A stretch of 21,013 nucleotides of DNA from a virus, in IMG/VR virus record IMGVR_UViG_3300028837_000972, positions 1 to 21,013 of that record, one strand, 5' to 3'. Below the pieces are notes generated by a model. The model had not been told where the DNA came from, searched no databases, and saw only the letters and a program-made list of their open reading frames with translations. Position numbers and translations under genes: made by a program. Positions within the stretch are counted from its first letter, which is position 1; every line of letters starts with the position of its first letter. This document shows, in pieces, positions 5,767 to 21,013 of this stretch.

Positions 5767-5805
5767 GCAACCCGCCAAAGTCGCAAAACGTCATTGGCGG
5801 GTTGC
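5767..5805 (-). promoter_or_regulatory. Perfect 12-bp hairpin upstream of terS
   Basis: GCAACCCGCCAA (5767-5778) and TTGGCGGGTTGC (5794-5805) are exact reverse complements around a 15-nt loop. The hairpin ends 21 nt before the terS ATG. In the transcribed sense no clear U-run follows, so an intrinsic terminator is not favoured. A TerS/pac or cos recognition site, or an mRNA stability or translation element, fits the position. Confidence 0.65.
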
Positions 5806-6139: not shown

Positions 6140-6168
6140 ATTATAGCATATAGCTACGGGTTTGTCAA
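6140..6168 (-). promoter_or_regulatory. Perfect-consensus sigma70 promoter for the late (terS) block
   Basis: On the minus strand -35 TTGACA (6163-6168) and -10 TATAAT (6140-6145) are both exact consensus with an ideal 17-bp spacer. The 5' flank CTTGACAAACC is shared with the promoters at 6753 and 17045. Predicted start is about 6133. It lies in the gap between the gene ending at 6198 and the terminase block, so it most likely drives terS-terL-portal. Confidence 0.88.
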
Positions 6169-6729: not shown

Positions 6730-6758
6730 AGTATAACCCCATACGTAAGGTTTGTCAA
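6730..6758 (-). promoter_or_regulatory. Near-consensus sigma70 promoter
   Basis: Minus strand TTGACA (6753-6758), 17-bp spacer, TATACT (6730-6735). The context AAACCCCTTGACAAACC is nearly the same as at 17045, so a shared origin or shared regulator is plausible. It drives the 76-aa gene and the small genes after it. Confidence 0.85.
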
Positions 6759-7514: not shown

Positions 7515-7590
7515 CGTAACAGCGTAACACCTGTTACGCAACTGCTACGTAACAACTCCCCCCCTATAGGGGGAGTGTTACGGTGTTACG
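7515..7590. promoter_or_regulatory. Cluster of six CGTAAC sites with nested hairpins
   Basis: CGTAAC or its complement GTTACG occurs at 7515, 7523, 7533, 7548, 7577 and 7585. Positions 7523-7538 form a perfect CGTAAC-4-GTTACG palindrome. Positions 7548-7582 form a long hairpin, ACTCCCCC (7555-7562) with GGGGGAGT (7569-7576), extended by CGTAAC/GTTACG across a one-base bulge. GTGTTACG is repeated in tandem at 7575-7590. The last site overlaps the ATPase stop codon. Candidate roles: an operator for the adjacent HTH protein, replication iterons for the adjacent RepA-like ATPase, or an attenuator. Confidence 0.7.
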
Positions 7591-9047: not shown

Positions 9048-9166
9048 GCCCTGCGGGGCTACACCCTTTCGGAACCCTTTATTATAGAACCCTAGGAGCA
9101 TATAGTGCGCTCCTCTCCATCCAAGGACTCAGCCTTAGCTGTTCCCTGACCCTCACCCCGCAGGGC
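9048..9166 (-). ncRNA. Structured element A (terminal stem, upstream of SD)
   Basis: GCCCTGCGGGG (9048-9058) and CCCCGCAGGGC (9156-9166) are an exact 11-bp inverted repeat enclosing 97 nt. In the transcribed sense the interior contains a CC-GAAA-GG mini-hairpin and the string GAAAGGGTGTAGCCCCGC. The 3' arm ends 17 nt before the next ATG, next to its SD. Both boundaries resemble elements B, C2 and D2. Not recognised as a known RNA class. Confidence 0.55.
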
Positions 9167-9171
9167 TTCAT
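9082..9171 (-). CDS. Possible 29-aa peptide inside element A
   Basis: ATG at 9171 is preceded by GGAGG from copy 1 of the 22-bp repeat and reads MKPCGVRVREQLRLSPWMER before ending at TAA. Because the ribosome site is part of a repeat and the coding part is part of a structured element, this may be chance. It is listed because the initiation signal is good. Confidence 0.25.
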   Translation of the reverse strand: MKPCGVRVREQLRLSPWMERSALYAPRVL

Positions 9172-9193
9172 TCCTATACCTCCATTGGTAGGG

Positions 9194-9376
9194 TTACTTC
9201 TCTCTTTGCAGTCTTGTTGTTTGGTTTACCACCTTTAGATCAACTATGGCTTCGGCTGTGCGTATCGCTCCATAGGCCATCATCTCATTGATATCTGATA
9301 GGGCATCGATCTCCTTGAGTATATTATGAGACATTTCCCAAGCCTTGACTAGTTTATCCTTTTGCTCGCTATCCAT
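9194..9376 (-). CDS. Small helical hypothetical protein
   Basis: 60 aa, SD GGAGGAG before ATG. Mostly helical and charged (DSEQKDKLVKAWEMSHNI, IDALSDINEMMAYGAIRTAE). Lies between two copies of the 22-bp repeat. Not recognised. Confidence 0.65.
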   Translation of the reverse strand: MDSEQKDKLVKAWEMSHNILKEIDALSDINEMMAYGAIRTAEAIVDLKVVNQTTRLQREK

Positions 9377-9390
9377 TTTTCTCCTCCTTC

Positions 9391-9594
9391 CTATACCTCC
9401 ATTGGTAGGTTTGGGGCATATTCCTTAACAGCTCTGTCAAACTTTTCCATCACCATGCCTAGGTTAGTTCCGCAAAAGACTGCCCACCCTTCTTTGGCGT
9501 CAAAAATGGCTTGGTTAAAACCCTTTCTGCGGGCATCGTGTGTCTCGCTGTCCTCTGTTAAATACTTTAAGAATAACTCTCTCAGGTCTTCCAT
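9391..9594 (-). CDS. Small hypothetical protein
   Basis: 67 aa: LRELFLKYLTEDSETHDARR, then GFNQAIFDAKEGWAVFCG. Its SD (GGAGG, 7 nt from ATG) is inside repeat copy 3 and its stop is inside copy 2, so the gene is framed by the repeat and may have moved or duplicated as a cassette. Function unknown. Confidence 0.65.
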   Translation of the reverse strand: MEDLRELFLKYLTEDSETHDARRKGFNQAIFDAKEGWAVFCGTNLGMVMEKFDRAVKEYAPNLPMEV

Positions 9595-9628
9595 TCCTAT
9601 GCCTCCATTGGTAGGGGTAATAGACTAT

Positions 9629-9763
9629 CTACTCCTCAGTAATCTCAGTAATTTCATCTTCTACAACAATAACGCTATCAAGAGCGTTAAGCCGTGCTTT
9701 TTCCTCTGAATTAGCATCTACTTCAATGTATCCCTCTATCGTTAGTCCAACTCTGTATTTCAT
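9629..9763 (-). CDS. 44-aa acidic protein
   Basis: Reads MKYRVGLTIEGYIEVDANSE, then EKARLNALDSVIVV and an acidic end (EITEITEE). The beta-strand, E-x-A-R-x-x-A-L helix, acidic strand pattern is common among very small phage proteins. SD AAGGAGG 6 nt upstream of ATG. It ends 14 bp before repeat copy 3. Confidence 0.7.
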   Translation of the reverse strand: MKYRVGLTIEGYIEVDANSEEKARLNALDSVIVVEDEITEITEE

Positions 9764-9779
9764 CTTTCTCCTCCTTAGA

Positions 9780-9842
9780 TTAGCGGTAATGTAACCTGCT
9801 CCACCCGGCGCTGCGATAGATTGCCGTAATCCTCCGAAGCAT
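9780..9842 (-). CDS. Possible 20-aa basic peptide
   Basis: MLRRITAIYRSAGWSRLHYR, ATG immediately after the helicase-methylase stop (TAGATG), with AGGAGG at proper spacing formed by the last codons of that gene. Arg-rich. It could be a true mini-gene or chance. Confidence 0.3.
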   Translation of the reverse strand: MLRRITAIYRSAGWSRLHYR

Positions 9843-12194
9843 CTATTCCTCCTGTTTATACGAGAACAAATCTTGACTTATAGCCTCTGCTTCCCTAAGA
9901 TTGCTAACTGCCACATGGTAGTATTCAGGCTTCAATTCAATCAATACAGCTTTTCGCCCTAATTTAATAGCAACGTAAGCCTCACTCCCAATGCCCCCGA
10001 ATGGTGTTAGAACCGTCTCGCTGGGGTTGGAATAAAGTTTTATGCAGCGCTCGATAGTTCCTAGTTGTAAAGGGCAAATATGTTTTTCGTCATCTATTGC
10101 CCTGGCAGTTGTAAATTGTAATGTTTCCGTTTCTCGAATTCCTAGCCATATTCCATGCGCCCATTCAATCCAAGTCTCATTATCCATCTCGCCATTTTTT
10201 ACTGGTGTTACTGCTACGGTGTTCTCTCCCTCTTTTTTGAATAGGAGTACTTGGTCTACAAGCGCCGGTCGTGAATGAGTGGAGTCCTTGCGCATCTGAA
10301 CAAACAGAAGGGCTTTGCTTTTTATTCTGATTGCTTGAGCCTGCGGGTTCTTCTGGACATATGCTCTGCCTATAAATACCCACCCCTCTTTTTCATAGGC
10401 TCGGATAACTTCGCCGGGGAAATCCTTGATTCCTATATACCCATCCTTCTGGGCTAGAGCTGGCAGGTCGCTAGTATGCACGCAGGTCAATCTCCCGGGT
10501 TTAGTGACCCGCAAAACGTCACGAATTACAAAACTGTAATGCGAGAAGAATTCAGCCCAACCTCTGTTATTTCCTAAATCCCGCTCGCTCGCTGAATATG
10601 TAAACAGGTCAGCAAATGGGGGTGAGTAAACTGATAAGTCTATACTATTGTCCGGAATCTCCTTTAACCTTTGACAGCAATCCCCTAACATGGCAGTCCA
10701 GTTGTGCCCCTGGTCTGTCTGTTCCTTGTAGTCGGTTGTCAGGTTTGCGTTCAATCCTAATTCCTCCCTTTCGTAGTCTTTGGCTACTTCAATTAGATTC
10801 GCTCTTAACCGTTTCGCCATAGCATCCTTCCGCATGACATTTTGGTAAATCTCAGCCTCGGCGTCATGCAGAATCAGGTAAACATTAACAGGGTTTTCTT
10901 GCCCATATCTCCATTCTCGGCGTATGCATTGATAATATGTTTCCCAAGAGTCGTTGAGTCCCAGGAATACCATATTGGAGGCATTTTGAAAATTCATGCC
11001 AAAGCCAGCAATTTTGGGCTTGGTGATAAGCACTCTGATTTTACCGTCCTGGAAATCCTCTAGAGCCTTCGCCTTGATTTCGATACTATCAGACCCTTTG
11101 ACTTCGATAGCTCCGGGCAGTAGTTCCTTTGCTTGATTACTTTCTTTGTCTAACCCGCACCAGATAATCCACTGGCCGTTATCACTATCTACAATTTGCT
11201 TCAGCTTTGAGAGTTTACCGGGAAGCGTAGACTTCCTTACGGATACCCTGTCGGTTATACCATGCAAGTGAGTAAAAAAGAGCTGGTCGTTCGGCTTATA
11301 TTCGGTGTGTATAAAAGCAGGTAGAATTTTTAGGGGTGGCAAGATAAACCCATCGTCAGGATAGCCAAGGTCTGATGGTGTAGTCATAGTTATAGCCCAT
11401 GACGCTAGCCACTGGAAGAACTGGCTCTCTGCATGATGCTTAATTCTCCATTCAGTTCCGTTTTTATTACTACCCTTCTTTCTATACGAACGCCCCTCCA
11501 CTACGAAAGTATGTTCTTTGTTAGCATTAATGAAGAAGGTTGCCAGCATTTCCGCCATCGTGCAGATACCTAAGAATTCGGTATGATTCCCCAACTCAAT
11601 ATAATCGTTGGGGGCTGGTGTAGCCGTACAACAGAGTTTGTATCGAACATCAGCACATAATTCAGTTAGCCGCTGGCGAGTTTTCCCCCCAATGGATTTT
11701 AGGATGCTCGACTCATCCAAAACCACACTATTAAAACTAGAGTAATCAAATTGGTCAATCATTTCATAGTTTGTAATCCATAGTCTATGGTCAGGGTTTG
11801 TTTCGGACTGATGGCGGATATATCTAATCTCGATATCTATCTTCTTGGCCTCTCTAATTGTTTGCCTGGCGACTGAAAGCGGAGCTATTATTAAAGTGTT
11901 TTCTCCTAACAATCTAGCCCATTCTAGCTGTATGAATGTTTTGCCTAATCCGGTATCCAAGAAAACAGCACAAACCCCCTTGTGAATCGCCCATGAGACA
12001 ATGTCTTTTTGCCACCTGAATAATTTGGAGTGAATGTTCTTAATGTCTATCTCGCACCCTCTATTTTCTACCCTGATTTGTTTACCGGATAGAAATTCCG
12101 CATAGCCCTCGCCCGCCGACTCCGCCGGCAGTTCCTTTAATATCTCCCGGGCATCGCCGCAGTATTGTCGGACGTAAGGCTCAGACCAGTTTAT
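9843..12194 (-). CDS. SF2 helicase fused to DNA methyltransferase, ATA start proposed
   Basis: 783 codons if read from ATA at 12194 (SD GGAGG 7 nt upstream). No ATG, GTG or TTG occurs in frame until TTG at 11960, which falls at the very edge of Walker A. Helicase: RWQKDIVSWA (Q-motif-like), LDTGLGKT (Walker A, about residues 78-85), VVLDESS (motif II), CTATPAPND (motif III), AGFGMNF and QCIRREWRYGQ (motifs V and VI). Methyltransferase: MLGDCCQRLKEIP, SVYSPPF (motif IV, about 522-528), then TPFGGIG near the C terminus (motif I). The IV-before-I order fits beta-class N4/N6 amino-methylases. The first residues (QYCGDAREILKELPAES) look like the start of a second, truncated methyltransferase. Inferred: phage DNA modification or anti-restriction. 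Confidence 0.82.
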   Translation of the reverse strand: MNWSEPYVRQYCGDAREILKELPAESAGEGYAEFLSGKQIRVENRGCEIDIKNIHSKLFRWQKDIVSWAIHKGVCAVFLDTGLGKTFIQLEWARLLGENTLIIAPLSVARQTIREAKKIDIEIRYIRHQSETNPDHRLWITNYEMIDQFDYSSFNSVVLDESSILKSIGGKTRQRLTELCADVRYKLCCTATPAPNDYIELGNHTEFLGICTMAEMLATFFINANKEHTFVVEGRSYRKKGSNKNGTEWRIKHHAESQFFQWLASWAITMTTPSDLGYPDDGFILPPLKILPAFIHTEYKPNDQLFFTHLHGITDRVSVRKSTLPGKLSKLKQIVDSDNGQWIIWCGLDKESNQAKELLPGAIEVKGSDSIEIKAKALEDFQDGKIRVLITKPKIAGFGMNFQNASNMVFLGLNDSWETYYQCIRREWRYGQENPVNVYLILHDAEAEIYQNVMRKDAMAKRLRANLIEVAKDYEREELGLNANLTTDYKEQTDQGHNWTAMLGDCCQRLKEIPDNSIDLSVYSPPFADLFTYSASERDLGNNRGWAEFFSHYSFVIRDVLRVTKPGRLTCVHTSDLPALAQKDGYIGIKDFPGEVIRAYEKEGWVFIGRAYVQKNPQAQAIRIKSKALLFVQMRKDSTHSRPALVDQVLLFKKEGENTVAVTPVKNGEMDNETWIEWAHGIWLGIRETETLQFTTARAIDDEKHICPLQLGTIERCIKLYSNPSETVLTPFGGIGSEAYVAIKLGRKAVLIELKPEYYHVAVSNLREAEAISQDLFSYKQEE

Positions 12195-12574
12195 AGCCTT
12201 GCCTCCTTCATCCTCTTAAGTAAATCCTTGATATAGAGTCCTACCGCTGCCTTGTCCGTCTTACCTCTTTGTTGGGACTGAATTTCCAAGAGCCGAAACC
12301 GCCTCCTCCCTAACTGTTTGCGCATCCATGCCCTAAAGATGTCCTTGTGAGTGTCCAGGTAGAAATGGCAACCCCCACATAGCCCAATGCAGTTCTCGTC
12401 ATTCCACCGGGTCGCAAAGGTGTTGCGGTTATAAAAGTGAGCACAATCAAGCTCTTTATAGCTTGTTTTGCCTCGCTTACACTTCTCGCACCCGCCGACT
12501 CTTATCATCGCCCGGCGACGGATAGCCTCGGAGAACGGCGTGTCAAGATAGTTCCATTGGCTTTTCTTACCCAC
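12191..12574 (-). CDS. NinG-like/HNH zinc protein
   Basis: 127 aa, GTG start with GGAGAG upstream. GCEKCKRGKTSYKELDCAHF, then NENCIGLCGGCHFYLDTHKD-type spacing (about residues 28-80): paired CxxC and CxxC with CAH and H residues as in NinG/HNH-like proteins of phages. The basic C-terminal half (MRKQLGRRRFRLLEIQSQQR) would bind nucleic acid. Known: NinG (Rap) in lambda promotes recombination at branched DNA. The exact match to that family cannot be confirmed here. Overlaps both neighbours by a few bases. Confidence 0.72.
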   Translation of the reverse strand: MGKKSQWNYLDTPFSEAIRRRAMIRVGGCEKCKRGKTSYKELDCAHFYNRNTFATRWNDENCIGLCGGCHFYLDTHKDIFRAWMRKQLGRRRFRLLEIQSQQRGKTDKAAVGLYIKDLLKRMKEARL

Positions 12575-13166
12575 TATCTACTCTCCTGAACTCGATTACC
12601 CAGACGAATGGATTGACTTCCCAGCCATAACCTCGCTTGGCGTTGAGGGAGTTCCAGAGGCGGGTAAAAGCAGGACGATACCATGTTATACCTTCAATCT
12701 CTGTATATATAGCCTCTACCCCCTCAGCCTTCGCATCTTCCTCGCTTATATCCTGCAACCTCTCCGCTCTCACCCTTGTAATCTCCAAGAGGATACGGCT
12801 TGCCCAGCGTGGCATGTGGATTGGGGGTCTAGTTTTCCCTACTGCATATCGAAAATCCCACCCATCAGCTAGGTAGAATATCTCACTATCCGCCGATATC
12901 TTTGATGGCTTAGTCCAATCAAATTTACTTTCGGCAGCCCAAGCCTCCTTCACCCACAGCCTATCCCCAACCTGATAGGGGCACTTAAGGATAGCCCATA
13001 CGCCGTCAACCCTACCCGATTTATAATCTCTCCAAATTCCATATGGGCATTCTATACGAAGACCGTAACGAGGCTGAGGCTTAATCACCCTTCTCGTCTG
13101 TGTTTTTGTGCCGTCAAGGATGGCTGGGATAAGTTTTGTGCTGACGATTATTGGTCTCTCTTTCAT
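12567..13166 (-). CDS. ASCH-type phage protein
   Basis: 199 aa, SD GGAGGT before ATG. The N terminus KERPIIVSTKLIPAILDGTK followed by TQTRRVIKPQP is the signature of a common phage family often labelled ASCH-domain or morphogenetic protein. Further matching parts: QVGDRLWVKEAWA (about 86-98), PIHMPRWASRILLEITRVRA (about 137-156) and the C-terminal WEVNPFVWVIEF. Known: ASCH/PUA-like folds bind RNA or modified nucleobases; some have nuclease activity. Its place between NinG and mini-genes suggests nucleic-acid processing rather than morphogenesis. Confidence 0.82.
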   Translation of the reverse strand: MKERPIIVSTKLIPAILDGTKTQTRRVIKPQPRYGLRIECPYGIWRDYKSGRVDGVWAILKCPYQVGDRLWVKEAWAAESKFDWTKPSKISADSEIFYLADGWDFRYAVGKTRPPIHMPRWASRILLEITRVRAERLQDISEEDAKAEGVEAIYTEIEGITWYRPAFTRLWNSLNAKRGYGWEVNPFVWVIEFRRVDSG

Positions 13167-13169
13167 CTT

Positions 13170-13328
13170 TTACCTCCTACGTTCTCTCCATTCTTTTCTT
13201 GCAAGCCAAACCTCAAACCGATTGGAGGGGTAAAACTTACTTGACCTTTCTATTCCAAAGAGGCAATCAGCTATGTCCTCAGCAAGCCATGCCAGATACA
13301 TAAGCGCCTTGCAGATGATTCTCTTCAC
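13170..13328 (-). CDS. 52-aa small protein, amphipathic N terminus
   Basis: GTG start 10 nt after GGAGG. Sequence begins MKRIICKALMYLAWLAEDIA, then DCLFGIERSSKFYPSNRFEV and a basic end (WLARKEWRERRR). Ends 3 bp before the ASCH ATG. The first 20 residues could associate with membrane. Not recognised. Confidence 0.6.
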   Translation of the reverse strand: MKRIICKALMYLAWLAEDIADCLFGIERSSKFYPSNRFEVWLARKEWRERRR

Positions 13329-13335
13329 TGCGGCA

Positions 13336-13467
13336 TCACCTCCTTTCACGGCCGCCGCCTGCTACTACCAAGTAACTGAACAATCAAAGCCCAAAACAGG
13401 AAAAGAATCGCAACGCTCTGGCATATGTCTATAATTGACTGCATTATCTTCACCTCCTTTCACGGCC
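13336..13467. repeat. Two exact 18-bp SD-bearing repeats
   Basis: 13336-13353 and 13450-13467 are identical. On the minus strand the unit is GGCCGTGAAAGGAGGTGA. Both include the stop TGA of one gene and the SD of the next, an upstream-stop/SD cassette repeated 114 bp apart. Confidence 0.9.
13346..13444 (-). CDS. 32-aa membrane peptide
   Basis: MQSIIDICQSVAILFLFWAL, then IVQLLGSSRRRP: one hydrophobic helix and a basic tail. SD AAAGGAGGTGA is optimal. It follows another small membrane protein directly, so the pair could be holin-like or membrane modulators, but this is only a size/topology argument. Confidence 0.6.
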   Translation of the reverse strand: MQSIIDICQSVAILFLFWALIVQLLGSSRRRP

Positions 13468-13597
13468 ACCATTGGCGGAAGACCGAATGGTCTATCCTGC
13501 CTATTCGGATATAAACCCTCACGAAATCAACAAGACAGATGGCTATTATAGACAGGAACAACGGTGATAATAATATCGCTTTCAAGATACGTTTCAT
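13460..13597 (-). CDS. 45-aa membrane protein
   Basis: MKRILKAILLSPLFLSIIAI, then CLVDFVRVYIRIGRIDHSVF: basic N terminus, one transmembrane helix, then a polar end. The ribosome site is unusual, a run of eight G before AATG. Its start lies 12 nt after the 3' arm of element B. An upstream in-frame GTG/ATG would run through the element and is less likely. Confidence 0.6.
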   Translation of the reverse strand: MKRILKAILLSPLFLSIIAICLVDFVRVYIRIGRIDHSVFRQWWP

Positions 13598-13609
13598 TCC
13601 CCCCCCTGT

Positions 13610-13687
13610 GCCCTGCGGAGCCCCGGCGCATTTCTGAGACACACACAAGTGGCCTCCGTATACTCACAACCCGGGGCTCCGCAGGGC
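13610..13687 (-). ncRNA. Structured element B (17-bp perfect terminal stem)
   Basis: GCCCTGCGGAGCCCCGG (13610-13626) and its exact complement at 13671-13687 enclose 44 nt. This is the longest perfect stem in the window. Boundary sequences GAATAAGCCCTGCGG and GCAGGGCACAGG are shared with element A. Sits 12 nt before a start codon. The 344-nt gene-free stretch 13598-13941 is filled by B, C2 and C1. Confidence 0.65.
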
Positions 13688-13698
13688 TTATTCCCTTT

Positions 13699-13861
13699 GC
13701 TCTGCGGGGCTACTCGCCTACTACATTTCCCTACCAATCTTAGGAAGCCTACACCTTTCGGTGATTCGTGTCGGATCCACTCTTATGAGTCGGCATCCTA
13801 TGTGTCCGAGAACATCTCCCCCACGAGAGTCCAAGGCCCCTCGGCTTTCACCCCCCAGGGC
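13699..13861 (-). ncRNA. Structured element C2
   Basis: GCTCTGCGGGG (13699-13709) pairs with CCCCCCAGGGC (13851-13861) with one wobble and one C-C mismatch. Interior (transcribed sense) has a CACC-GAAA-GGTG hairpin (centred near 13754) followed by TGTAGG, similar to element A, and an ACTC-ATAA-GAGT hairpin flanked by GGAT/ATCC. Directly joined to B on one side and C1 on the other. Confidence 0.45.
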
Positions 13862-13867
13862 TTATTG

Positions 13868-13942
13868 AGCCAGCCAGTAGCACAAGACTTCCCTCGTTGC
13901 CCGCTACAAGCTATCGCTCTTGTCCCTTTCGGGTAGCTGGCT
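13868..13942 (-). ncRNA. Structured element C1 (AGCCAGC ends)
   Basis: AGCCAGC (13868-13874) and GCTGGCT (13936-13942) are inverted. In the transcribed sense it opens AGCCAGCTACCCGAAAGGG, including a CCC-GAAA-GGG hairpin. Both ends match element D1, but the 75-nt length and interior differ. The junction with C2 lies in an exact 26-bp repeat (13852-13877) also present at 14930-14955. Confidence 0.5.
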
Positions 13943-14211
13943 TATCTCCCCTCCGATAGTAGCTTCATGAAATCATCCAGCTCTTCCTTGCTAACCCTCA
14001 CCGATGGCAGGAGGGTTACACCTACAATACACAGAGGCGAGTAGTCATCCGAGAGTTCTAGCTGAACACGAAAGCCCTCCTGAAGCTTGCTTAATAAGGA
14101 TACATCCCTTAGAAGATAACACTCTCGGTTTGTGCAGTAGACCTTCCAGTAGGGCTTTCCCCAACGAGCCTTAACCGTCCCAACCTCTACTACAACCGTA
14201 TCAAGTTTCAT
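13942..14211 (-). CDS. Hypothetical protein next to SSB-like gene
   Basis: 89 aa, beta-rich: VVVEVGTVKARWGKPYWKVY, then CTNREC (a CxxxxC pair) and VQLELSDDYSPLCIVGVTLL, ending in a short acidic helix (SKEELDDFMKLLSEG). Starts inside the end of the upstream gene (11-bp overlap). Possibly an OB-like or accessory protein of the ssDNA-binding candidate; not recognised. Confidence 0.65.
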   Translation of the reverse strand: MKLDTVVVEVGTVKARWGKPYWKVYCTNRECYLLRDVSLLSKLQEGFRVQLELSDDYSPLCIVGVTLLPSVRVSKEELDDFMKLLSEGR

Positions 14212-14851
14212 TATTATACACCTTTAATAGCTTGGGATGCAGGTCTTCAATGTCTATCTCTTCTACCTTCTTTACCCCTGCGAATTCAAGGATGTTGGCT
14301 TGGGATTGACCACGCTTCTGCCAGTACTGGAAAAAGGCACCTCGGTTGGCAAAGCCTTCGGTAACAACTTGCGCGGGGCTAGGAGTGGCTTGCCTTGGTG
14401 ATTCAGTGATATTTGTCCCTGCCCTTAGCTTTGCGAGAAGCCACGCTCTCAAGTCTATAATTTCTTCTGTGTCATCCAGTTTGCCAGCTATCCAGAGTTG
14501 GGCAGTAATGTCTGCTGCCTTCTGCCCTTCGATGCTTGTCCGCTCTTCGGGGCTCTTACCCCAGCTTCCTTTCCCTTCCCCCCTTATGGCTACAGGTGCC
14601 CCCTCTACATAAATCTGGTTTACCTTACGGTCCACATAAGTATTCCCGTCATGCTCGCGGGAGGAGGTTTCAACCTCGGCGTCTATCTCCTTGGAGCTCT
14701 GAATTGTTTCAAAGAGATTGCCCCGGAAGGTGAAGTAAGACAGATCGGAACCGCCCTTGCAGGTTGCCTGGAAGCTCAGCTTGGGTATTTGCTTGTTGCC
14801 GACCTTTGTAATTTCACTTACCTTCGTGATAGTTAGCTTCATTCGTTCCAT
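14201..14851 (-). CDS. Putative ssDNA-binding OB-fold protein
   Basis: 216 aa from the ATG 6 nt after GGAGG; an ATG two codons earlier touches the SD and is disfavoured. Residues 1-85 look like an OB fold: LTITKVSEITKVGNKQIPKL, FQATCKGGSDLSYFTFRGNL, and a strand ending RKVNQIYVEG. Then a GKGSWGKSPEERTSIEGQ motif, known from phage and archaeal-type phage ssDNA-binding-like proteins, followed by helices. C terminus NRGAFFQYWQKRGQSQANIL and a short acidic/neutral tail. Inferred: single-strand binding during replication. No classic acidic SSB tail is seen. Confidence 0.6.
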   Translation of the reverse strand: MERMKLTITKVSEITKVGNKQIPKLSFQATCKGGSDLSYFTFRGNLFETIQSSKEIDAEVETSSREHDGNTYVDRKVNQIYVEGAPVAIRGEGKGSWGKSPEERTSIEGQKAADITAQLWIAGKLDDTEEIIDLRAWLLAKLRAGTNITESPRQATPSPAQVVTEGFANRGAFFQYWQKRGQSQANILEFAGVKKVEEIDIEDLHPKLLKVYNNET

Positions 14852-14870
14852 TATCATCCTCCTTTCATTT

Positions 14871-14939
14871 GCCCTGGGGGCTGGCGCCCACCCACCAGCT
14901 TGTCTACCAATTTTCTGCTACAACTTCCACCCCCAGGGC
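14871..14939 (-). ncRNA. Structured element D2
   Basis: GCCCTGGGGG (14871-14880) and CCCCCAGGGC (14930-14939), exact 10-bp inverted repeat, 49-nt interior. In the transcribed sense the interior holds AAAATTGGTAGACAAGC, which resembles a tRNA-Leu D-arm, as does part of element F. Ends 19 nt before the SSB-like ATG, directly against its SD. Confidence 0.55.
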
Positions 14940-14945
14940 TTATTG

Positions 14946-15062
14946 AGCCAGCCAGGATAGGGTCTTTACGGTATCGTTCTAGCATCCCCCCGGAGGGTAG
15001 CGCCCTTTCTGCCTTGTTAGACTACTCCCGTCAGCAACAGACGCCCTTTCAGGTAGCTGGCT
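14946..15062 (-). ncRNA. Structured element D1 (AGCCAGC ends)
   Basis: AGCCAGC (14946-14952) and GCTGGCT (15056-15062) are inverted. The 22 bases at its upper end (15044-15065) match C1's (13924-13945) at all but one position, and the lower junction is the exact 26-bp repeat shared with C1/C2. The 117-nt body differs from C1. Internal GGAGTAGTC and a CTCCGGGGGG stem-like run are visible. Confidence 0.5.
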
Positions 15063-15068
15063 TATTTC

Positions 15069-15165
15069 CTAATATAGATACTCTGTGCCACAACCTTGGC
15101 AGATAGCTTTCTTAAAACTCCTTATACCCGCACTTGTCGCATACTAGTCTATCTACTTGTTTTAT
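15069..15165 (-). pseudogene. Zinc ribbon split by +1 frame change at TTT TAA
   Basis: One frame gives VDRLVCDKCGYKEF then TAA. The +1 frame continues KKAICQGCGTEYLY to TAG. Joined at TTT TAA G, they make a textbook zinc ribbon, C-x2-C-x9-C-x2-C. AAGGAG sits directly before TTT. No ATG/GTG/TTG opens the first part; the only start abutting the upstream gene is ATA within an ATAA overlap. Either the gene is decayed, or it uses +1 recoding of the prfB type with an unusual start. The two anomalies together make decay or sequence error the safer reading. Confidence 0.45.
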
Positions 15166-15362
15166 TTCCTTGTGCCTCTCCAAATCCCAAAAACAGCACA
15201 TATAGCAAGCAGACAAAAGAGACATCCAAGGACTACTGCCGTGAGTAGATTGGCAGTCATGGCTCTTGCAGTATTCTCCTGGATGAATGTCTGCATTACT
15301 ATATCTGAGACACCTGCCTCTATCAATTCCTCTAGGGCATCGATAAACCTCTCCATATGCAT
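15162..15362 (-). CDS. Small membrane protein
   Basis: 66 aa, SD GGAGG 5 nt from ATG (a second ATG two codons later is equally possible). N-terminal helix MHMERFIDALEELIEAGVSD, middle QTFIQENTARAM, then a transmembrane helix LLTAVVLGCLFCLLAICAVF and a short basic end. A large ORF overlaps it in another frame, but the hydrophobic pattern and SD favour this one. Function unknown. Confidence 0.65.
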   Translation of the reverse strand: MHMERFIDALEELIEAGVSDIVMQTFIQENTARAMTANLLTAVVLGCLFCLLAICAVFGIWRGTRK

Positions 15363-15394
15363 AGTAGCCTCCTTTCTTTATTTCCTTTCTCCAT

Positions 15395-15462
15395 CCCCGC
15401 CCACCAGCCCTATTCAATGTCGAATCTACTTGACTAGCTATCTCAATGACTGATGGGCGGGG
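15395..15462 (-). ncRNA. Structured element H
   Basis: CCCCGCCCACCAG (15395-15407) pairs with CTGATGGGCGGGG (15450-15462): 13 pairs including one G-T wobble, 42-nt interior. Lies in the gap before the membrane protein, 32 nt from its ATG. The arm sequence differs from the CCCTGCGGGG group, but the architecture is the same. Confidence 0.5.
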
Positions 15463-15482
15463 TCGAGAAACAAACTACCTCT

Positions 15483-15740
15483 TTAGTGAATCTTCTCGAT
15501 TACGTCTCTGATAAGGGCGATACGCATCTCGATGATTCCCAGAGATGCTTTCCTTAAGGCCTCGATAGACTCATCTAGGACGTTATTCCATACTCCTTCG
15601 CCTTGTGTCTTTTCTTCTTTAGCCCTAGGTGTCCTTTCAAAGGATTCCCCCAATAGACTGCGCAGAGAATTCACCTGGTTGAGAATTGATAAGCTTAGAG
15701 CCAAGAGAGTATCCTCTTTCCCCCAGCTATCGATTTGCAT
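15483..15740 (-). CDS. Hypothetical helical protein, internal start of fused ORF
   Basis: 85 aa: MQIDSWGKEDTLLALSLSIL, then NQVNSLRSLLGESFERTPRA, ending in a helix (SLGIIEMRIALIRDVIEKIH). Its ATG has an excellent SD (AAAGGAGG, 7 nt) lying inside the upstream YopX-like frame, showing that it was, and probably still is, an independent gene. Function unknown. Confidence 0.7.
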   Translation of the reverse strand: MQIDSWGKEDTLLALSLSILNQVNSLRSLLGESFERTPRAKEEKTQGEGVWNNVLDESIEALRKASLGIIEMRIALIRDVIEKIH

Positions 15741-16058
15741 GGTCTGTCCTCCTTTCTTTATTCCCGTGCCCCCTCGGTATCTTGATAAACGCCAACCTAT
15801 TGCGTCGTCAGATTGCCAAGCAACAATATATGACAAGGCAGCACCACGCATCCTTACCCTATCCCCCTCGTATATCTCCACACCATTCAAGTCGTGGAGG
15901 CCGGTATATTCTAGGAATTGTTGTATTTTTTTAAATGCGACCCACTCATCCCCACAAGCTCGCTCAATCAATGCTTTTTCCCAAAGCCAATCGATAGCCC
16001 AAACCTTATAGATCCCTGCGTCGCCTTTAATCTTTGCCATGAACCTTATCTCTCGCAT
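15483..16058 (-). CDS. YopX-like protein, read in frame into the next gene
   Basis: 191 codons with no intervening stop. Residues 1-95 match the YopX style: MREIRFMAKI at the start and FLEYTGLHDLNGVEIYEGDR (about 48-67), a hallmark of this phage family. After residue about 95 the frame runs across a ribosome site (KKGGQT encoded by AAAGAAAGGAGG...) into the 85-aa gene. A TAA (15758-15760) lies one frame away just before that SD. Losing one base from the G5 run at 15769-15773 would end the YopX-like protein as RGARE. So the fusion may be a recent 1-nt insertion or a sequencing error. YopX function is unknown. SD GGAG 7 nt from ATG. Confidence 0.6.
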   Translation of the reverse strand: MREIRFMAKIKGDAGIYKVWAIDWLWEKALIERACGDEWVAFKKIQQFLEYTGLHDLNGVEIYEGDRVRMRGAALSYIVAWQSDDAIGWRLSRYRGGTGIKKGGQTMQIDSWGKEDTLLALSLSILNQVNSLRSLLGESFERTPRAKEEKTQGEGVWNNVLDESIEALRKASLGIIEMRIALIRDVIEKIH

Positions 16059-16059
16059 C

Positions 16060-16248
16060 TTAATTCTCCCCCAGCAGAGCAGCCAGTCGTGCTAGTCGAA
16101 GTCCCTCCAAGAAACTGCGATTTGCTCGTTTTATTTCCCGTTGGCGTTCCTGCTCCCTCACCGTCTCTGGCACATCCTCTAGGCGAACAGCCCACATCCG
16201 TGATTTCTCTAGCAAGCCGAGGTTGTCCCATTCCTGTTCGGTCATCAT
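16060..16248 (-). CDS. Small charged helical protein
   Basis: 62 aa: MMTEQEWDNLGLLEKSRMWA, then EDVPETVREQERQREIKRAN and a Leu/Arg-rich end. SD AGAGGAGG directly after the GGGC-TTAAC-GCCC hairpin. One base separates it from the YopX-like start. Not recognised. Confidence 0.65.
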   Translation of the reverse strand: MMTEQEWDNLGLLEKSRMWAVRLEDVPETVREQERQREIKRANRSFLEGLRLARLAALLGEN

Positions 16249-16250
16249 TT

Positions 16251-16541
16251 TCCTCCTCTGGGCTTAACGCCCTAGCCTATGATTACCACAGGCATCCCTG
16301 AGGCATCCTGATCCAACTGCACGATACCCAAATCCCATGCGATACTTTTGCACCGGGAGCAGCCCAGTCCCCCTTCTTGAAGTTTAAGAGCTTCTATTAG
16401 CCTGCTCTCAATATCGCCCACACCAATTACATCGATAAGGATATGGTTCTTATCGCTCTCGGGAAGCCCTTCCACCAAGGCGGTTAAGGCTTCCCTTCGT
16501 TTTCGTTCCATCGTTCTCCTCCTTTGGGCTAACGCCCTAGC
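16251..16541. repeat. Two hairpin-SD cassettes
   Basis: Copies at 16251-16276 and 16517-16541 differ by one inserted base and one substitution. On the minus strand: GCTAGGGCGTTA(A)GCCC followed by an A-rich AGGAGG. The stem GGGC/GCCC ends 11 and 14 nt before the two ATGs. The first copy also contains the TAG stop of the upstream gene. Confidence 0.8.
16272..16511 (-). CDS. Small hypothetical protein with CxxC
   Basis: 79 aa: basic start MERKRREALTALVEGLPESD, then NHILIDVIGVGDIESRLIEA, GLGCSRCKSIAWDLGI (one CxxC pair) and a beta-like end. SD AAAGGAGGAG. The single CxxC could bind metal as a dimer. Not recognised. Confidence 0.65.
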   Translation of the reverse strand: MERKRREALTALVEGLPESDKNHILIDVIGVGDIESRLIEALKLQEGGLGCSRCKSIAWDLGIVQLDQDASGMPVVIIG

Positions 16542-16567
16542 AACTGAACACCGGGGGGCTGTTGGTC

Positions 16568-16765
16568 TTATTTAATTACGAGTATATCTTTTACCAGCCT
16601 GTAGGGGGCTTGCTCTCCCCATTTCATCAACCCAGCTATAAAGTGAGGATTGATACTGACGCTCACGACTTCCTTTGTTCCCCCGTTTACCATATAGACA
16701 TCGATCTCCTCGTTGCGCCTGTTTGATTCCTTCACCCAAGAGCGAAGGTCAATAGGATTTTCCAT
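16568..16765 (-). CDS. Small hypothetical protein
   Basis: 65 aa: MENPIDLRSWVKESNRRNEE, then IDVYMVNGGTKEVVSVSINP, a mixed alpha/beta sequence. SD AAAGGAG 5 nt from ATG. Not recognised. Confidence 0.65.
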   Translation of the reverse strand: MENPIDLRSWVKESNRRNEEIDVYMVNGGTKEVVSVSINPHFIAGLMKWGEQAPYRLVKDILVIK

Positions 16766-16823
16766 GAGTCTCCTTTCGCCTTGCTCCCCCGATATCCAGT
16801 TGTTAAGGTGCTAGTGTCCCCTC

Positions 16824-16991
16824 CTAGCGACGTCTAGGGATATATCTGTGGGTTTTCCCGTCTATTCGCTTGCCTGCTTTAATCTGCTGAAAGAGACATT
16901 CGGAACAGTACCTTTGTCGGCTGCCCTGCTCTGCCTCAAACCCGCCTCCGCAAGATTCGCAATGATATATTACTATTCGATTTGTTGCCAT
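16824..16991 (-). CDS. Small zinc-ribbon protein
   Basis: 55 aa from ATG with GGAGAG 6 nt upstream: MATNRIVIYHCESCGGGFEA, then RQRYCSECLFQQIKAG and a basic end (THRYIPRRR). CxxC...CxxC is a clear zinc ribbon. First gene after the promoter at 17022-17050 (leader about 24 nt), hence probably highly expressed. A longer frame extends upstream, but it crosses the promoter. Confidence 0.75.
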   Translation of the reverse strand: MATNRIVIYHCESCGGGFEAEQGSRQRYCSECLFQQIKAGKRIDGKTHRYIPRRR

Positions 16992-17021
16992 CGTTCTCTC
17001 TCCTATCTTGCCCCTGCAACC

Positions 17022-17050
17022 ATAATAAACTATTTGCCAGGGTTTGTCAA
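17022..17050 (-). promoter_or_regulatory. Near-consensus sigma70 promoter
   Basis: Minus strand TTGACA (17045-17050), 17-bp spacer, TATTAT (17022-17027). Surrounding AAACCCCTTGACAAACC is the same as at 6753. Located between the DUF4406 stop and the zinc-ribbon gene. Confidence 0.85.
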
Positions 17051-17091
17051 GGGGTTTTGGGACGATTTTTGGGGGGTTGCAAAAATTGTAT

Positions 17092-17418
17092 CTATTTACG
17101 AGCGGGCACTTGCCCAAGATTGTAGAATATCTCCTTCCCCCAAGACTGTGCCAACTTGAGCTCTCTGTCTGCGCCGGGGCTAGAGGCAACAAAAAACAAA
17201 GCATCACACTTTTCTAGCAAGGCATCATCGAGACGTATAAAATCGGCACGGCAAAGCCGTAGATCAAGCTCCCAGTGGCGGGTAAGGTTGTGGGGGCAGA
17301 CAGGCTCGTGTCCCATTGCGCATAAACCTCGTGCTACTGCATCGGCTCGCATGATGTTCTGTTCGATCTTCCAATAACTTAGATGGTCCCCATAAGGGCC
17401 TGCTACGAATATAATCAT
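17092..17418 (-). CDS. DUF4406 / nucleoside deoxyribosyltransferase-like
   Basis: 108 aa. MIIFVAGPYGDHLSYWKIEQ: a Rossmann-like first strand with AGPY, the known signature of this fold. Then ARGLCAMGHEPVCPHNLT, DDALLEKCDALFFVASSPGA (D and S/A at substrate pocket positions), and DRELKLAQSWGKEIFY with the conserved E. Known: relatives cleave or transfer 2'-deoxyribose between bases; DUF4406 members are uncharacterised. Together with the adjacent DUF1599-like gene it suggests nucleotide or modified-base metabolism. SD AAAGGAGG; the ATG follows the upstream TAA directly. Confidence 0.8.
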   Translation of the reverse strand: MIIFVAGPYGDHLSYWKIEQNIMRADAVARGLCAMGHEPVCPHNLTRHWELDLRLCRADFIRLDDALLEKCDALFFVASSPGADRELKLAQSWGKEIFYNLGQVPARK

Positions 17419-17700
17419 TTATGCCTCCTTTAATGGCAAGTTAAAACTTTCCTCTCTTAGCATAAGGGCAATAATAGCATAGCCAGCAATATCCTTCCAA
17501 GTATCCTCAGTCGACTCATTATGAGGGTCTTTGCCTTGTAGGTTCTTTAGCCTTGCTACCTTATCGTTCAGCCTCACTAATACTCCAAACTCGCCGAAGT
17601 CAAGTATGTTCGCTTTGCCATAATCCCTTTGTTTGCTTATAACTAGCTCTGCTAAGCACTCAGTTATCTCCTTACAAGCACCCTCAAATGTGAATTCCAT
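17419..17700 (-). CDS. DUF1599/Nmad1-like nucleotide-modification-associated protein
   Basis: 93 aa from ATG with SD AAAGGAGGGG. SKQRDYGKANILDFGEFGVL (about residues 19-38) followed by VRLNDKVARLKNL and EDTWKDIAGYAIIALML is the hallmark of DUF1599 (nucleotide modification associated domain 1). Known: these all-alpha proteins occur near base-modifying genes of phages and resemble MazG-type architecture. Starts within TAATG at the end of the upstream 37-aa gene. Inferred: a nucleotide pool or hypermodification accessory. Confidence 0.85.
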   Translation of the reverse strand: MEFTFEGACKEITECLAELVISKQRDYGKANILDFGEFGVLVRLNDKVARLKNLQGKDPHNESTEDTWKDIAGYAIIALMLREESFNLPLKEA

Positions 17701-17813
17701 TATTTCCCCTCCTTTTTCTTCCACTCCTCCCATAGCTCCACAGACGTCTTGTCCGGCGTCCACATAGGCCACTGTGACTTGCACCACTTGACAAACTTAT
17801 CCCAATCCTTCAT
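17700..17813 (-). CDS. 37-aa tryptophan-rich peptide
   Basis: MKDWDKFVKWCKSQWPMWTP, then DKTSVELWEEWKKKEGK. Six tryptophans in 37 residues. Starts at ATG overlapping the metallophosphoesterase stop (TAATG) and ends in TAATG with the next gene. SD GGAGG 5-6 nt upstream within the last codons of the phosphoesterase. Function unknown; the double coupling supports reality. Confidence 0.65.
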   Translation of the reverse strand: MKDWDKFVKWCKSQWPMWTPDKTSVELWEEWKKKEGK

Positions 17814-19372
17814 TAGACCTCCACTGTAACTCTAGGCTTGCCTGTTCCGGCAAACTTGATAACAGGTATATCTAGGTCTACGGGCGGGAACCCCCCCATC
17901 TCTGCATACCCACCCCATTTCAAATAGGCATTTGCTTTTACCAACATTTTCCTATGAGCGGCAACTTTCCCTACCTGAAAGCCACTCTCCTCATCCTTGT
18001 GAGTTCTAGGGTCGGGGATTAAATAGACATCGGGAGCAACGTTGACCACATGGTCGTGGCTCATAATGTAGCAGTTATGGGTTGCAATACCTTCGGCAAT
18101 AAAGGTGTGTTCGTCCGTCTCTATCCGTATCACCTCCTGCTGCCCACTCGATTCAACACTTACTACTTGCACTGTCTGTGGATGCTGAAGCCCCTTTTCG
18201 ACTAAATTGCGCGCTTTCCCTCTTAATCTTAAAGGCTGTACCATACCAATTATTTTGGCTGCATCTCTGCGCATAATTAGATTGGCTACGTCTTTATCGT
18301 TTAGATATTTGTGATAGTATATTTGGTTATCGGCGAGATAATCTTCCACGTACTCAAGAACTATGCCTTCTTTTTGCGAGAACGCTACCTGCCTGTTCCG
18401 TTGTGGATTGGTGACAGTTATTGACCCTTCCCCATCTAGCAACCCCGCAATATACCCATCCTCCCACCTGTTGCGAGTTTTCCAAACATCAAAAACCTTG
18501 AGGAGCGAATCACCCTGCTTTATATCTTTTGTTTTATACCAATTGTACCTTCCACCTAATTTGGAACCATCATGCCTCCTTTTCGTAAGCCATAAGTGTT
18601 CAGGTGTTGTTACGAATTGAGTCCCATCATTAAGACTTAATCTCAGAGTATCAGCATGTTTGTGCTGAACATAAGTCACATTGGTGTGCAGTAACCTTCT
18701 GCACAATCCAAATTCGGGGTATTCAGATACTCCAATTAGCTCGTCACCCTCACGAACACCCCCAAGTTCAACCCATTCCAAGTTGCCATTCAACACTTTT
18801 GTTTGAGGATGAAGGCAGTCAGCATGGAGCCAGGTTCCAAGCCTCTCAACTTTAACAGCTTTAGCGGATTTTGTCCGTGCTCCTCCATATCCGTGAGTGG
18901 CATAGACGAAGTAGGTATAGGGTTTCCCGGGAGTTGATTTATTGTTGTCACCAAAGGAAATCTTGAGCAGGATGCCAGAAGGTCGATAGGGAGCACCAAG
19001 TGCTTCTGCTATATCCTGACTAATGTCTACCCCGCTTTCTCGGTAAATTCGATACTCATGATTCCCGGTAGTAACTCCCAAAATCTTGTGTTTGATTGGC
19101 TTTAGTTTTTTGATATGGAAGTCTCGTTGTTGCTGAGGGGTTAGCTTTTGAGAATAGACATCGCCAACGGATAGACGAGTAGCAGAATCGCAGAGGTCGC
19201 CATTCAGAATAGTATAGGCATTGCGGGTATTTTTGAGAAAGTCCAAGGTGCGGTTATAATGAGGCTCGCTAAAAAGAGGGTCGCCATAATGAGCATCACT
19301 GAGAGGGAGAAGCAGAAGGTCTTTAAAGCGTGGATTCAGCTCGTGGGCATAGTAAATCAATTCCTTTTCCAA
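17813..19372 (-). CDS. Calcineurin-like metallophosphoesterase precursor with intein
   Basis: 519 codons: N-extein 1-185, intein 186-433, C-extein 434-519, so the mature enzyme would be 271 aa. Metal motifs: DAH (26-28), NGDLCD (57-62), TTGNHEY (101-107), THG (159-161), and SHDH (438-441) just after the intein. Known: this fold uses two metals to hydrolyse phosphomono/diesters; phage versions may act on DNA ends, nucleotides or RNA. Start is TTG, 7 nt after AAAGGAGG. A nearby ATG (19377) is out of frame and gives only a hexapeptide. First long gene after promoter 19646-19674. It cannot fold its last metal site until splicing is done, so activity depends on splicing. Confidence 0.9.
   Translation of the reverse strand: MEKELIYYAHELNPRFKDLLLLPLSDAHYGDPLFSEPHYNRTLDFLKNTRNAYTILNGDLCDSATRLSVGDVYSQKLTPQQQRDFHIKKLKPIKHKILGVTTGNHEYRIYRESGVDISQDIAEALGAPYRPSGILLKISFGDNNKSTPGKPYTYFVYATHGYGGARTKSAKAVKVERLGTWLHADCLHPQTKVLNGNLEWVELGGVREGDELIGVSEYPEFGLCRRLLHTNVTYVQHKHADTLRLSLNDGTQFVTTPEHLWLTKRRHDGSKLGGRYNWYKTKDIKQGDSLLKVFDVWKTRNRWEDGYIAGLLDGEGSITVTNPQRNRQVAFSQKEGIVLEYVEDYLADNQIYYHKYLNDKDVANLIMRRDAAKIIGMVQPLRLRGKARNLVEKGLQHPQTVQVVSVESSGQQEVIRIETDEHTFIAEGIATHNCYIMSHDHVVNVAPDVYLIPDPRTHKDEESGFQVGKVAAHRKMLVKANAYLKWGGYAEMGGFPPVDLDIPVIKFAGTGKPRVTVEV
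18074..18817 (-). mobile_element. Intein with single LAGLIDADG endonuclease motif
   Basis: 248 residues. Block A: Cys1 in CLHPQTKVLNG. Block B: TTPEHLWLT, with T and H at catalytic positions. Endonuclease: DGYIAGLLDGEGSITV, one LAGLIDADG-type motif only. Blocks F/G: RIETDEHTFIAEGIATHN ending in Asn, next residue Cys. All canonical class 1 splicing residues are present, so autocatalytic excision is expected. One LAGLIDADG motif in a region of about 90 residues suggests a homodimer-type endonuclease or a reduced one. Confidence 0.92.
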
Positions 19373-19464
19373 TTCATTACCTCCTTTATTTGGGCATAGC
19401 GATAGCAGAGACCGGGGAATTCAGGGGATTTTGTAGAGGCCACCGGAGAATTACTCCAGCTCAT
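19357..19464 (-). CDS. Possible 35-aa leader peptide overlapping the phosphoesterase start
   Basis: ATG with a perfect AAAGGAGGTA, reading MSWSNSPVASTKSPEFPGLC and ending TGA 16 nt inside the phosphoesterase. The sequence around its SD (AATAAAGGAGGTAATGA) is repeated before the phosphoesterase start. It may be a coupling leader peptide that carries ribosomes to the TTG start, or chance. Confidence 0.4.
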   Translation of the reverse strand: MSWSNSPVASTKSPEFPGLCYRYAQIKEVMNWKRN

Positions 19465-19477
19465 TACCTCCTTTATT

Positions 19478-19604
19478 CTGCGGGGCATTACGGATTTATG
19501 CCGGGGCAACTAAGGCACGGACTTGGGTGTAGTCCTCACCGTTCAGCCGTATCTCCTTACTTGCATAATTTGAGGCTACCCTTTTCCTACACTCAGCCCC
19601 GCAG
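19478..19604 (-). ncRNA. Structured element E in 5' UTR
   Basis: CTGCGGGGC (19478-19486) and GCCCCGCAG (19596-19604), exact 9-bp inverted repeat around 109 nt. Inside: GGACT-7-AGTCC hairpin and CGG-7-CCG. Lies wholly within the leader predicted for the promoter at 19646, and ends 13 nt before the next ATG, against its SD. Size and place would also suit a cis-regulatory RNA. Confidence 0.55.
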
Positions 19605-19623
19605 TCTGATAGAAGTTTGAATC

Positions 19624-19638
19624 GTACGCCCTTCGTAC
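19624..19638. promoter_or_regulatory. Operator-like palindrome at transcription start
   Basis: GTACG-5-CGTAC. Located 7-21 bp downstream of the -10 box, covering the predicted start (about 19639) and first transcribed bases, where a repressor would block initiation. No second copy seen in the window. Confidence 0.5.
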
Positions 19639-19645
19639 AGTAAAT

Positions 19646-19674
19646 ATAATAACATATTAAGATAACTTTGTCAA
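19646..19674 (-). promoter_or_regulatory. Near-consensus sigma70 promoter for the phosphoesterase block
   Basis: Minus strand TTGACA (19669-19674), 17-bp spacer, TATTAT (19646-19651), AT-rich spacer. Directly after the stop of the 60-aa gene. Drives a leader of about 175 nt including element E. Confidence 0.85.
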
Positions 19675-19675
19675 C

Positions 19676-19858
19676 TTATCTCGATTTTGACTCGATACAG
19701 TAACTTTCAATAAGGCGGTGGGCGTCATCGTAGATGTCCTCTGTAATAGTTGCTAGAAGTTTTCGGTCGCCACTACATTTCAAAGCTATATCGCACCTAT
19801 TGCGAAGTGTTTTAATCGCTTCAATATACCAGTGATCACCAAGGGCTTTCTCTTCCAT
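19676..19858 (-). CDS. Small hypothetical protein
   Basis: 60 aa: MEEKALGDHWYIEAIKTLRN, then RCDIALKCSGDRKLLATITE and an acidic helix. Start overlaps the end of the upstream zinc-ribbon gene by 23 bp with only a weak purine tract, so translation is probably coupled. Not recognised. Confidence 0.6.
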   Translation of the reverse strand: MEEKALGDHWYIEAIKTLRNRCDIALKCSGDRKLLATITEDIYDDAHRLIESYCIESKSR

Positions 19859-19988
19859 CTTTCTCGCTCAACTTCAGGATAGCCTTCAAAAGGCATTTTA
19901 GACAGATAGATACTCCGTCCTTGAACATAATAGCAAGCCTTCGTTCACCACACTCTTTACAAATGAAGCTATGCCCGACTTGTCGCAT
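19836..19988 (-). CDS. 50-aa zinc-ribbon protein
   Basis: MRQVGHSFICKECGERRLAI, then MFKDGVSICLKCLLKAILKL: CxxC (10-13) and CxxC (29-32). No SD precedes the ATG; instead element F ends 12 nt upstream. The start is fixed by an in-frame stop shortly before. Overlaps the next gene by 23 bp. Confidence 0.65.
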   Translation of the reverse strand: MRQVGHSFICKECGERRLAIMFKDGVSICLKCLLKAILKLSEKDGRESPW

Positions 19989-20000
19989 CTTTTACAATAT

Positions 20001-20134
20001 CTGCGTAGGGGCTAGGGATTTGCACCCTAGATAGTTTCTTTTCAGCCCGTTATAGCATCACGCCATAACAGTCAGAGCACGTGGCAAAAACCCTGTGTCT
20101 TCAGTGCGTCTACCTATTCCGCCACCCCTCGCAG
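20001..20134 (-). ncRNA. Structured element F with tRNA-Leu-like parts
   Basis: CTGCGTAGGGG (20001-20011) pairs with CCCCTCGCAG (20125-20134) with one bulge. In the transcribed sense the 5' part GGGGTGGCGGAATAGGTAGACGC looks like tRNA-Leu acceptor/D-arm, but is split for quotation only by its own length: key pieces are TGGCGGAAT and GGTAGACGC. The 3' part is a 6-bp T-arm-like stem CTAGGG/CCCTAG with loop TGCAAAT, followed by CCCC. An 8-bp stem, GTTATGGC with GCTATAAC, sits between. No standard anticodon arm can be drawn, the acceptor top mispairs and the length is about 45 nt too great. So it is a degenerate tRNA or a tRNA-like element. Confidence 0.45.
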
Positions 20135-20886: not shown

Positions 20887-21013
20887 TATGCTTCCTCCTT
20901 CGCTTGTCCTTGCGCTTTATACTTCGTTTCGTCTTTGGCATAATAATCATAACACCCCCGGGGCTTTTTGTCAAGATAGTAGCCGCACTCAGGGCAGATA
21001 TAACCTAGAAAGG
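20886..21013 (-). CDS. Zinc-ribbon-type protein, 5' end off window
   Basis: Open from the right edge to TAA: FLGYICPECGYYLDKKPRGC, then YDYYAKDETKYKAQGQAKEE. CPECG plus a later Cys indicate half of a zinc ribbon, with the rest outside. It contains the promoter-like sequence at 20946-20974. Confidence 0.6.
   Translation of the reverse strand, partial: FLGYICPECGYYLDKKPRGCYDYYAKDETKYKAQGQAKEEA
20946..20974 (-). promoter_or_regulatory. Promoter-like sequence inside a coding region
   Basis: Minus strand TTGACA (20969-20974), 17-bp spacer, TATGAT (20946-20951). Strong by score, but it lies within the zinc-ribbon frame and lacks the CTTGACAAACC flank of the other phage promoters. If used, the message starts about 53 nt before the next ATG. 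Confidence 0.45.

Follow-up and report, generated by a model that had tools for sequence, protein, structure and literature searches.

In T7-like phages the early mRNA carries intergenic processing hairpins for RNase III that lie just before ribosome-binding sites, and phi29 encodes a structured RNA, the pRNA. Conserved pseudoknots have been described for few small RNAs of phages, and the majority of ornate phage RNAs lack an assigned function. ROOL and GOLLD, found in phages and prophages, are ornate noncoding RNAs whose structures include pseudoknots; they are 600 to 800 nt long or more, often lie near tRNAs and have no known partner or function (PMC12286853). A literature search on T7 RNase III sites and phage structured RNAs returned only this paper and a study of AbiF.

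Here we describe the structured elements of a 21-kb piece of an uncultured phage (21,013 nucleotides, hereafter the window), in which the genes of interest and all of the RNA elements discussed are on the minus strand. Like the T7 hairpins, these elements are stems between genes and immediately before ribosome-binding sites; however, one of them, element E, is built on a conserved double-pseudoknot core, and its copy in the phage contig L049 is followed by a terminator rather than a ribosome-binding site. Like the pRNA and other phage small RNAs, E is a structured RNA encoded by a phage, and the L049 copy lies just before a terS-like gene, but E has no match in Rfam and the position near terS is absent from the window and from a third phage, L028. 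E shares with ROOL and GOLLD the character of an orphan, pseudoknotted noncoding phage RNA, but it is 130 to 170 nt long and no Rfam model, those of ROOL and GOLLD included, matches it. On balance we favor the interpretation that units of structured noncoding RNA occupy the gaps of the early operons; E most likely acts in trans, and two further elements, C1 and D1, probably represent a second set.

Strongly folded RNAs in the gaps between genes

Five elements are closed by perfect Watson-Crick terminal stems: A (positions 9048 to 9166, seen by fold z-score and stem scan; 11 bp, GCCCTGCGGGG / CCCCGCAGGGC), B (13610 to 13687, from the stem search; 17 bp around a 44-nt loop), D2 (14871 to 14939; 10 bp, GCCCTGGGGG / CCCCCAGGGC, before a gene with its start at 14857 or 14851), E (19478 to 19604; 9 bp) and H (15395 to 15462; 9 bp, GC-rich, CCCCGCCCA / TGGGCGGGG, unrelated in sequence to the others). 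The earlier note had described terminal stems at these positions, and each was recovered there. In the window and in 300 second-order Markov shuffles of it, we counted GC-rich stems that had 9 bp or more, including 8 or more GC pairs, around a loop of 20 to 220 nt. The shuffles gave a mean of 0.19 and a maximum of 2, and none reached the five seen (A, B, D2, E and H); in the gaps alone there are five such stems as compared to 0.04 expected by shuffling. Fold z-scores were -4.0 for A, -7.5 for B, -3.4 for D2, -4.5 for H, -3.1 for E, -3.7 for element F, -5.8 for a hairpin before terS and -2.7 for C1, with values of -0.6 for D1 and 0.2 for element C2 taken without its 3' arm. Strongly folded RNAs occupy the gaps between the genes of this phage.

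It had been claimed that the elements end 11 to 32 nt before a start codon, which holds for those listed: the distance from the 3' end to the next start is 17 nt for A, 12 for B, 13 for D2, 32 for H, 13 for E and 12 for F. The 5' ends are equally close to the preceding stop codons (2 nt for F, -2 for C1, 11 for D1, 20 for H and 27 for A). So placed, the elements occupy the gaps in a compact operon, and being near a ribosome-binding site need not carry meaning by itself. The proposed placement against ribosome-binding sites thus stands as geometry, and the contact is probably a by-product of tight operon packing.

The boundary sequences AAGCCCTGSGG and CCSCAGGGC that A, B, C2 and D2 were said to have in common are real. 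The outer stem of C2 (13699 to 13861, assigned from sequence, its homology unproven) is GCCCTGGGGGG / CCCCGCAGAGC, with 9 of 11 pairs formed. The outer stems of A, B, D2 and E show paralogous covariation (CTGCGGGG, CTGCGGAG, CTGGGGG) without a common interior; likewise, A, B, C2 and D2 share covarying stem ends around no demonstrable common core, and no homologues were proven for these four or for H. The proposal that all of the elements form one dispersed family did not survive: no other window element was found with a covariance model built on E, F derives from a tRNA-Leu, and C1 and D1 are separate.

Around A we observed a 29-codon open reading frame (9081 to 9171, minus strand, start at 9171) that is preceded by GGAGG and extends across the 5' half of the element. 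Three copies of the 20-mer CCTAYACCTCCATTGGTAGG, which on the minus strand reads CCTACCAATGGAGGTATAGG and is a ribosome-binding site, stand before successive genes, at 9173 to 9192, 9390 to 9409 and 9596 to 9615.

Element E in three phages

Scanning for relatives of the window by terminase yielded 30 contigs with a TerL 65 to 100% identical, and a helicase-methylase scan added 13 more; single-protein scans with the AAA ATPase and a 218-aa protein found no relatives. The early region of the window is not collinear with that of any of the TerL or helicase-methylase relatives. Reading the gaps of the TerL relative L028 revealed two homologues. L028:7103-7244 matches E (blastn E=5e-8). When all viral contigs were scanned for the pattern of the conserved core, a third copy was identified in L049 (blastn to E, 6e-5). 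The L028 and L049 copies are 89% identical. E was recovered by a leave-one-out profile at 6e-8 and by a covariance model at E=4e-22.

The conserved core of E spans 19494 to 19594, and helices P1, P3, P3b and P4 are kept in all three phages together with two further helices, PK1 and P5. In the window P1 pairs 19596-19604 with 19478-19486, P3b pairs 19562-19568 with 19496-19502, P4 pairs 19539-19542 with 19517-19520, PK1 pairs 19587-19592 with 19527-19532 and P5 pairs 19574-19577 with 19545-19548. Because PK1 and P5 cross P3, P3b and P4, the predicted fold contains two pseudoknots.

Several of these helices differ in sequence while remaining paired. PK1 is GTGTAG/CTACAC in E and L028 and GCAAAG/CTTTGC in L049; P3b is TTATGC/GCATAA in E and TTGCAAC/GTTGCAA in the other two; P4 is ACGG/CCGT or CTGG/CCAG. 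P1 is different in each phage (CTGCGGGGC, ATGCTGGGG and GGGCTTGTTAG) and is replaced together with its perfect complement every time. L028 and L049 also have a 5' hairpin in common, with the loop TCCCAWT and a stem that covaries (ACTC/GAGT versus GCTT/AAGC). In the core of the three-sequence alignment, 10 pairs are changed on both sides and 97.4% of cells are paired, a result matched by none of 500 shuffles; slid controls gave 0 to 1 two-sided pairs. Since two of the three sequences are 89% alike, part of this covariation rests on few events. A protein-coding explanation of the core was rejected, as L028 has stops in every frame and the changes between L028 and L049 show no third-position excess. 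The compensatory changes that had been named as support for a functional RNA are present, and at the level of sequence comparison E is well supported as a structured RNA conserved by selection on its base pairs. The functional-RNA proposal holds for E in this way and is probable for C1 and D1.

E appears from these searches to be a previously unlisted phage RNA. Rfam 15 at gathering thresholds gave no match in the window, in the regions of focus or in the L049 and L063 regions, and in the related contigs it gave one tRNA (in L004) and nothing else; lax searches produced chance matches only. Hammerhead, HDV and twister ribozymes, group I and II introns and known riboswitches were sought by eye and with Rfam, and none was found. 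A pattern scan of 84,980 genomes returned six matches to the E core, none with surrounding E sequence; blastn with E and with B to D, and megablast with the window, found no match in INPHARED, and E had no match in plasmids. Covariance-model and TerL searches of 400 genomes from the phylum of a Chloroflexus MAG were also negative.

The gene context of E differs in all three phages, and no single family lies downstream. In the window, E directly follows a sigma-70 type promoter (TTGACA-N17-TATTAT, 19646 to 19674, 11 of 12 consensus matches) and precedes a short open reading frame and a phosphoesterase-like gene. In L028, E lies mid-operon after a DUF4406-like gene and is followed by a second structured stretch and an 81-aa open reading frame. 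In both of these phages E is inside an operon. In L049, an intrinsic terminator comes after E (the stretch has 2, versus 0.2 expected), and the terS-like gene comes next; the promoter of this copy is imperfect and received no call in the promoter scan. Among the three phages, E has no conserved link to a ribosome-binding site or a terminator.

L049 and the window have unrelated terminases, and blastn of L049 against L028 and the other compared phages found no common DNA beyond the E RNA. The RNA therefore appears to be shared on its own, which lends some support to the earlier idea of small mobile RNA elements. For a horizontally shared RNA with changing neighbors, the best reading is a noncoding RNA that would act in trans.

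Two further features of this region are recorded here. The phosphoesterase-like protein (17813 to 19372, minus strand) looks as if it bears a LAGLIDADG-type intein, judged by weak Pfam matches and a C-terminal HNC. Besides the promoter before E, near-consensus sigma-70 promoters occur on the minus strand at 20946-20974, 17022-17050, 6730-6758 and 6140-6168, which indicates a bacterial host.

A probable second family, a tRNA remnant and ordinary hairpins

Directly 5' of C2 and D2 lie C1 (13866 to 13944) and D1 (14944 to 15064), which were absent from the original list of elements and have AAGCCAGCTACCYGAAAGGG...GGCTGGCTCAATAAGCCCTGGGGG in common. C1 (GCCAGCTACC...GCTGGC) begins at the stop codon of the upstream gene and was identified by alignment, profile search and its fold z-score; D1 was identified by alignment and profile and has the terminal stem, with a whole fold no better than shuffles. 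Both can be aligned with L028:821-918, L064:3241-3165 (minus strand) and L063:6322-6441. Members have a terminal stem of conserved sequence (GCCAGCTAC / GCTGGC), and their interiors align poorly; leave-one-out values were weak, at 0.02 to 0.5, with one member missed. All five members, from four phages, are followed by a GGGG...AGCCCC stem, after which comes a ribosome-binding site, except at C1, where B intervenes. Among C-rich hexamers before gapped gene starts in the phage group, AGCCCC has the highest enrichment (7 of 89, with C-rich control hexamers mostly at 0 to 1). A MAFFT alignment of the GGGG...AGCCCC elements was uninformative. From the alignments, C1 and D1 are probably a second RNA family.

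At 15074 to 15225 (minus strand), a small zinc-ribbon protein (...LVCDKCGYKEF / KKAICQGCGTEYLY*) is interrupted and split by a +1 shift at GAG TTT TAA G, for which a programmed frameshift and a sequence error are both possible.

Element F (20001 to 20134) is, by blastn to phage tRNA-Leu genes and alignment to a Kremar tRNA, a tRNA-Leu-derived remnant. Like phage tRNA genes and pseudo-tRNAs it keeps the acceptor and D-arm (GAGGGGTGGCGGAATAGGTAGACGCAC) and a recognizable T-arm (TAGGGTGCAAATCCCTA), and over 29 nt its 5' half is 97% identical to a phage tRNA. It differs from them in a large insertion of about 55 nt at the anticodon arm, and in its T-loop TTC is changed to TGC; neither ARAGORN nor RF00005 detected an intact tRNA at F. 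The other elements are not tRNA-like. The same phage has an intact tRNA gene with a CAT anticodon and encoded CCA at L004:8887-8958, beyond the left end of the window.

The remaining hairpins that had been counted with the family are ordinary. The terS hairpin (5767 to 5805) is a terminator-like match with the tail CTTATTTGAA and probably serves the late operon as a weak intrinsic terminator within its leader. The mini-hairpins at 16260 to 16272 (before AGAGGAGG) and 16525 to 16536 (before AAAGGAGG), the former a copy of the latter, are merely 4-bp GGGC/GCCC stems within a duplicated ribosome-binding-site sequence. Upstream of terS in L007, L008, L016, L022 and L024, the late genes are preceded by a promoter with a terminator-like hairpin close behind it, the arrangement that antitermination control of a late operon would lead one to expect.

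Explanations for the elements and observations in related contigs

According to the interpretation that we favor, the early-operon gaps would hold structured noncoding RNA units. E would be an RNA of 130 to 170 nt with a core of P3, P3b and P4 and the pseudoknot helices PK1 and P5, closed by a P1 of free sequence, and would act in trans by binding a host or phage protein, the ribosome or an RNA. In this phage it would be made as part of an mRNA and probably freed or trimmed at its terminal stem by host RNases. C1 and D1 with the GGGG...AGCCCC stems would probably be a second set of such RNAs. It is an even bet, in our estimate, that E founds a new horizontally shared class of phage RNA and that C1/D1 with the GGGG...AGCCCC stems form a second, whose members stand in tandem between the genes of recombination and replication operons, with these small "ornate" RNAs acting in trans on the host. 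A rather unlikely alternative is that the elements act in cis as processing sites for RNase III or other enzymes, as 5' stabilizers or as insulators that give the next gene a clean ribosome-binding site, as in T7. Every window element ends 11 to 32 nt before a start, the 17-bp perfect duplex of B would suit RNase III well as a substrate, other phages of the clade again have stems with an AGCCCC 3' arm in front of ribosome-binding sites (the 7 of 89 gapped starts), and E lies within operons in the window and L028. However, E would not require so elaborate a conserved core for such a role, and element 5' ends are just as near stop codons. The terminator, rather than a ribosome-binding site, after the L049 copy also speaks against the earlier suggestion of a translation insulator or 5' stabilizer as the common role of E. 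We therefore regard E as more likely to be an RNA with its own job than an accessory of the ribosome-binding site.

It could also be speculated that A, B, C2 and D2 are small mobile elements, of RNA or DNA, that have conserved ends, were inserted between genes and spread by recombination. The shared boundaries around different interiors, the two copies each of the C1-type and C2/D2-type units in one genome and the sharing of the E RNA by otherwise unrelated phages are consistent with this, but no target duplications or empty sites were shown, the early regions of the relatives are not collinear, and the junction GGCTGGCTCAATAAGCCC was not found in other viral contigs; we consider it improbable. 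Riboswitch-like leaders that sense a signal and control the next gene are highly improbable: E does follow a promoter and precede an operon in the window, and its fold has two pseudoknots, but the next gene is different in all three phages, there is no conserved link to a ribosome-binding site or terminator, and the Rfam riboswitch models gave no match. The likelihood that the elements are degenerate tRNA genes of a decayed array is practically negligible. F and the intact tRNA gene in L004 would fit such an origin, but the other elements have no tRNA features by ARAGORN and RF00005, and E, in contrast to a gene in decay, is conserved with covariation. This reading is refuted for E and rejected for every element except F. 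With trans action of E as the preferred reading, what looks like a "leader" structure in a phage operon can be a noncoding RNA gene embedded there. The compact, alignable core of E, its three natural variants and the copy that ends at its own terminator make structure determination and pull-down in a laboratory host practical.

Other structured sequences were observed in related contigs and elsewhere in the window. Long structured gaps without a family match occur in the same terminase clade at L017:8954-9636, L063:7449-7787 and L061:680-798. At 7521 to 7592 of the window, upstream of a 149-aa gene, inverted and repeated GTTACG motifs surround an 11-bp stem and look like an operator or origin iterons. 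At L039:401-484 and L035:598-721, long leader stems stand straight after TTGACA-type promoters and straight before an ATG, and those of L035 overlap and are mutually exclusive, in the manner of an attenuator.
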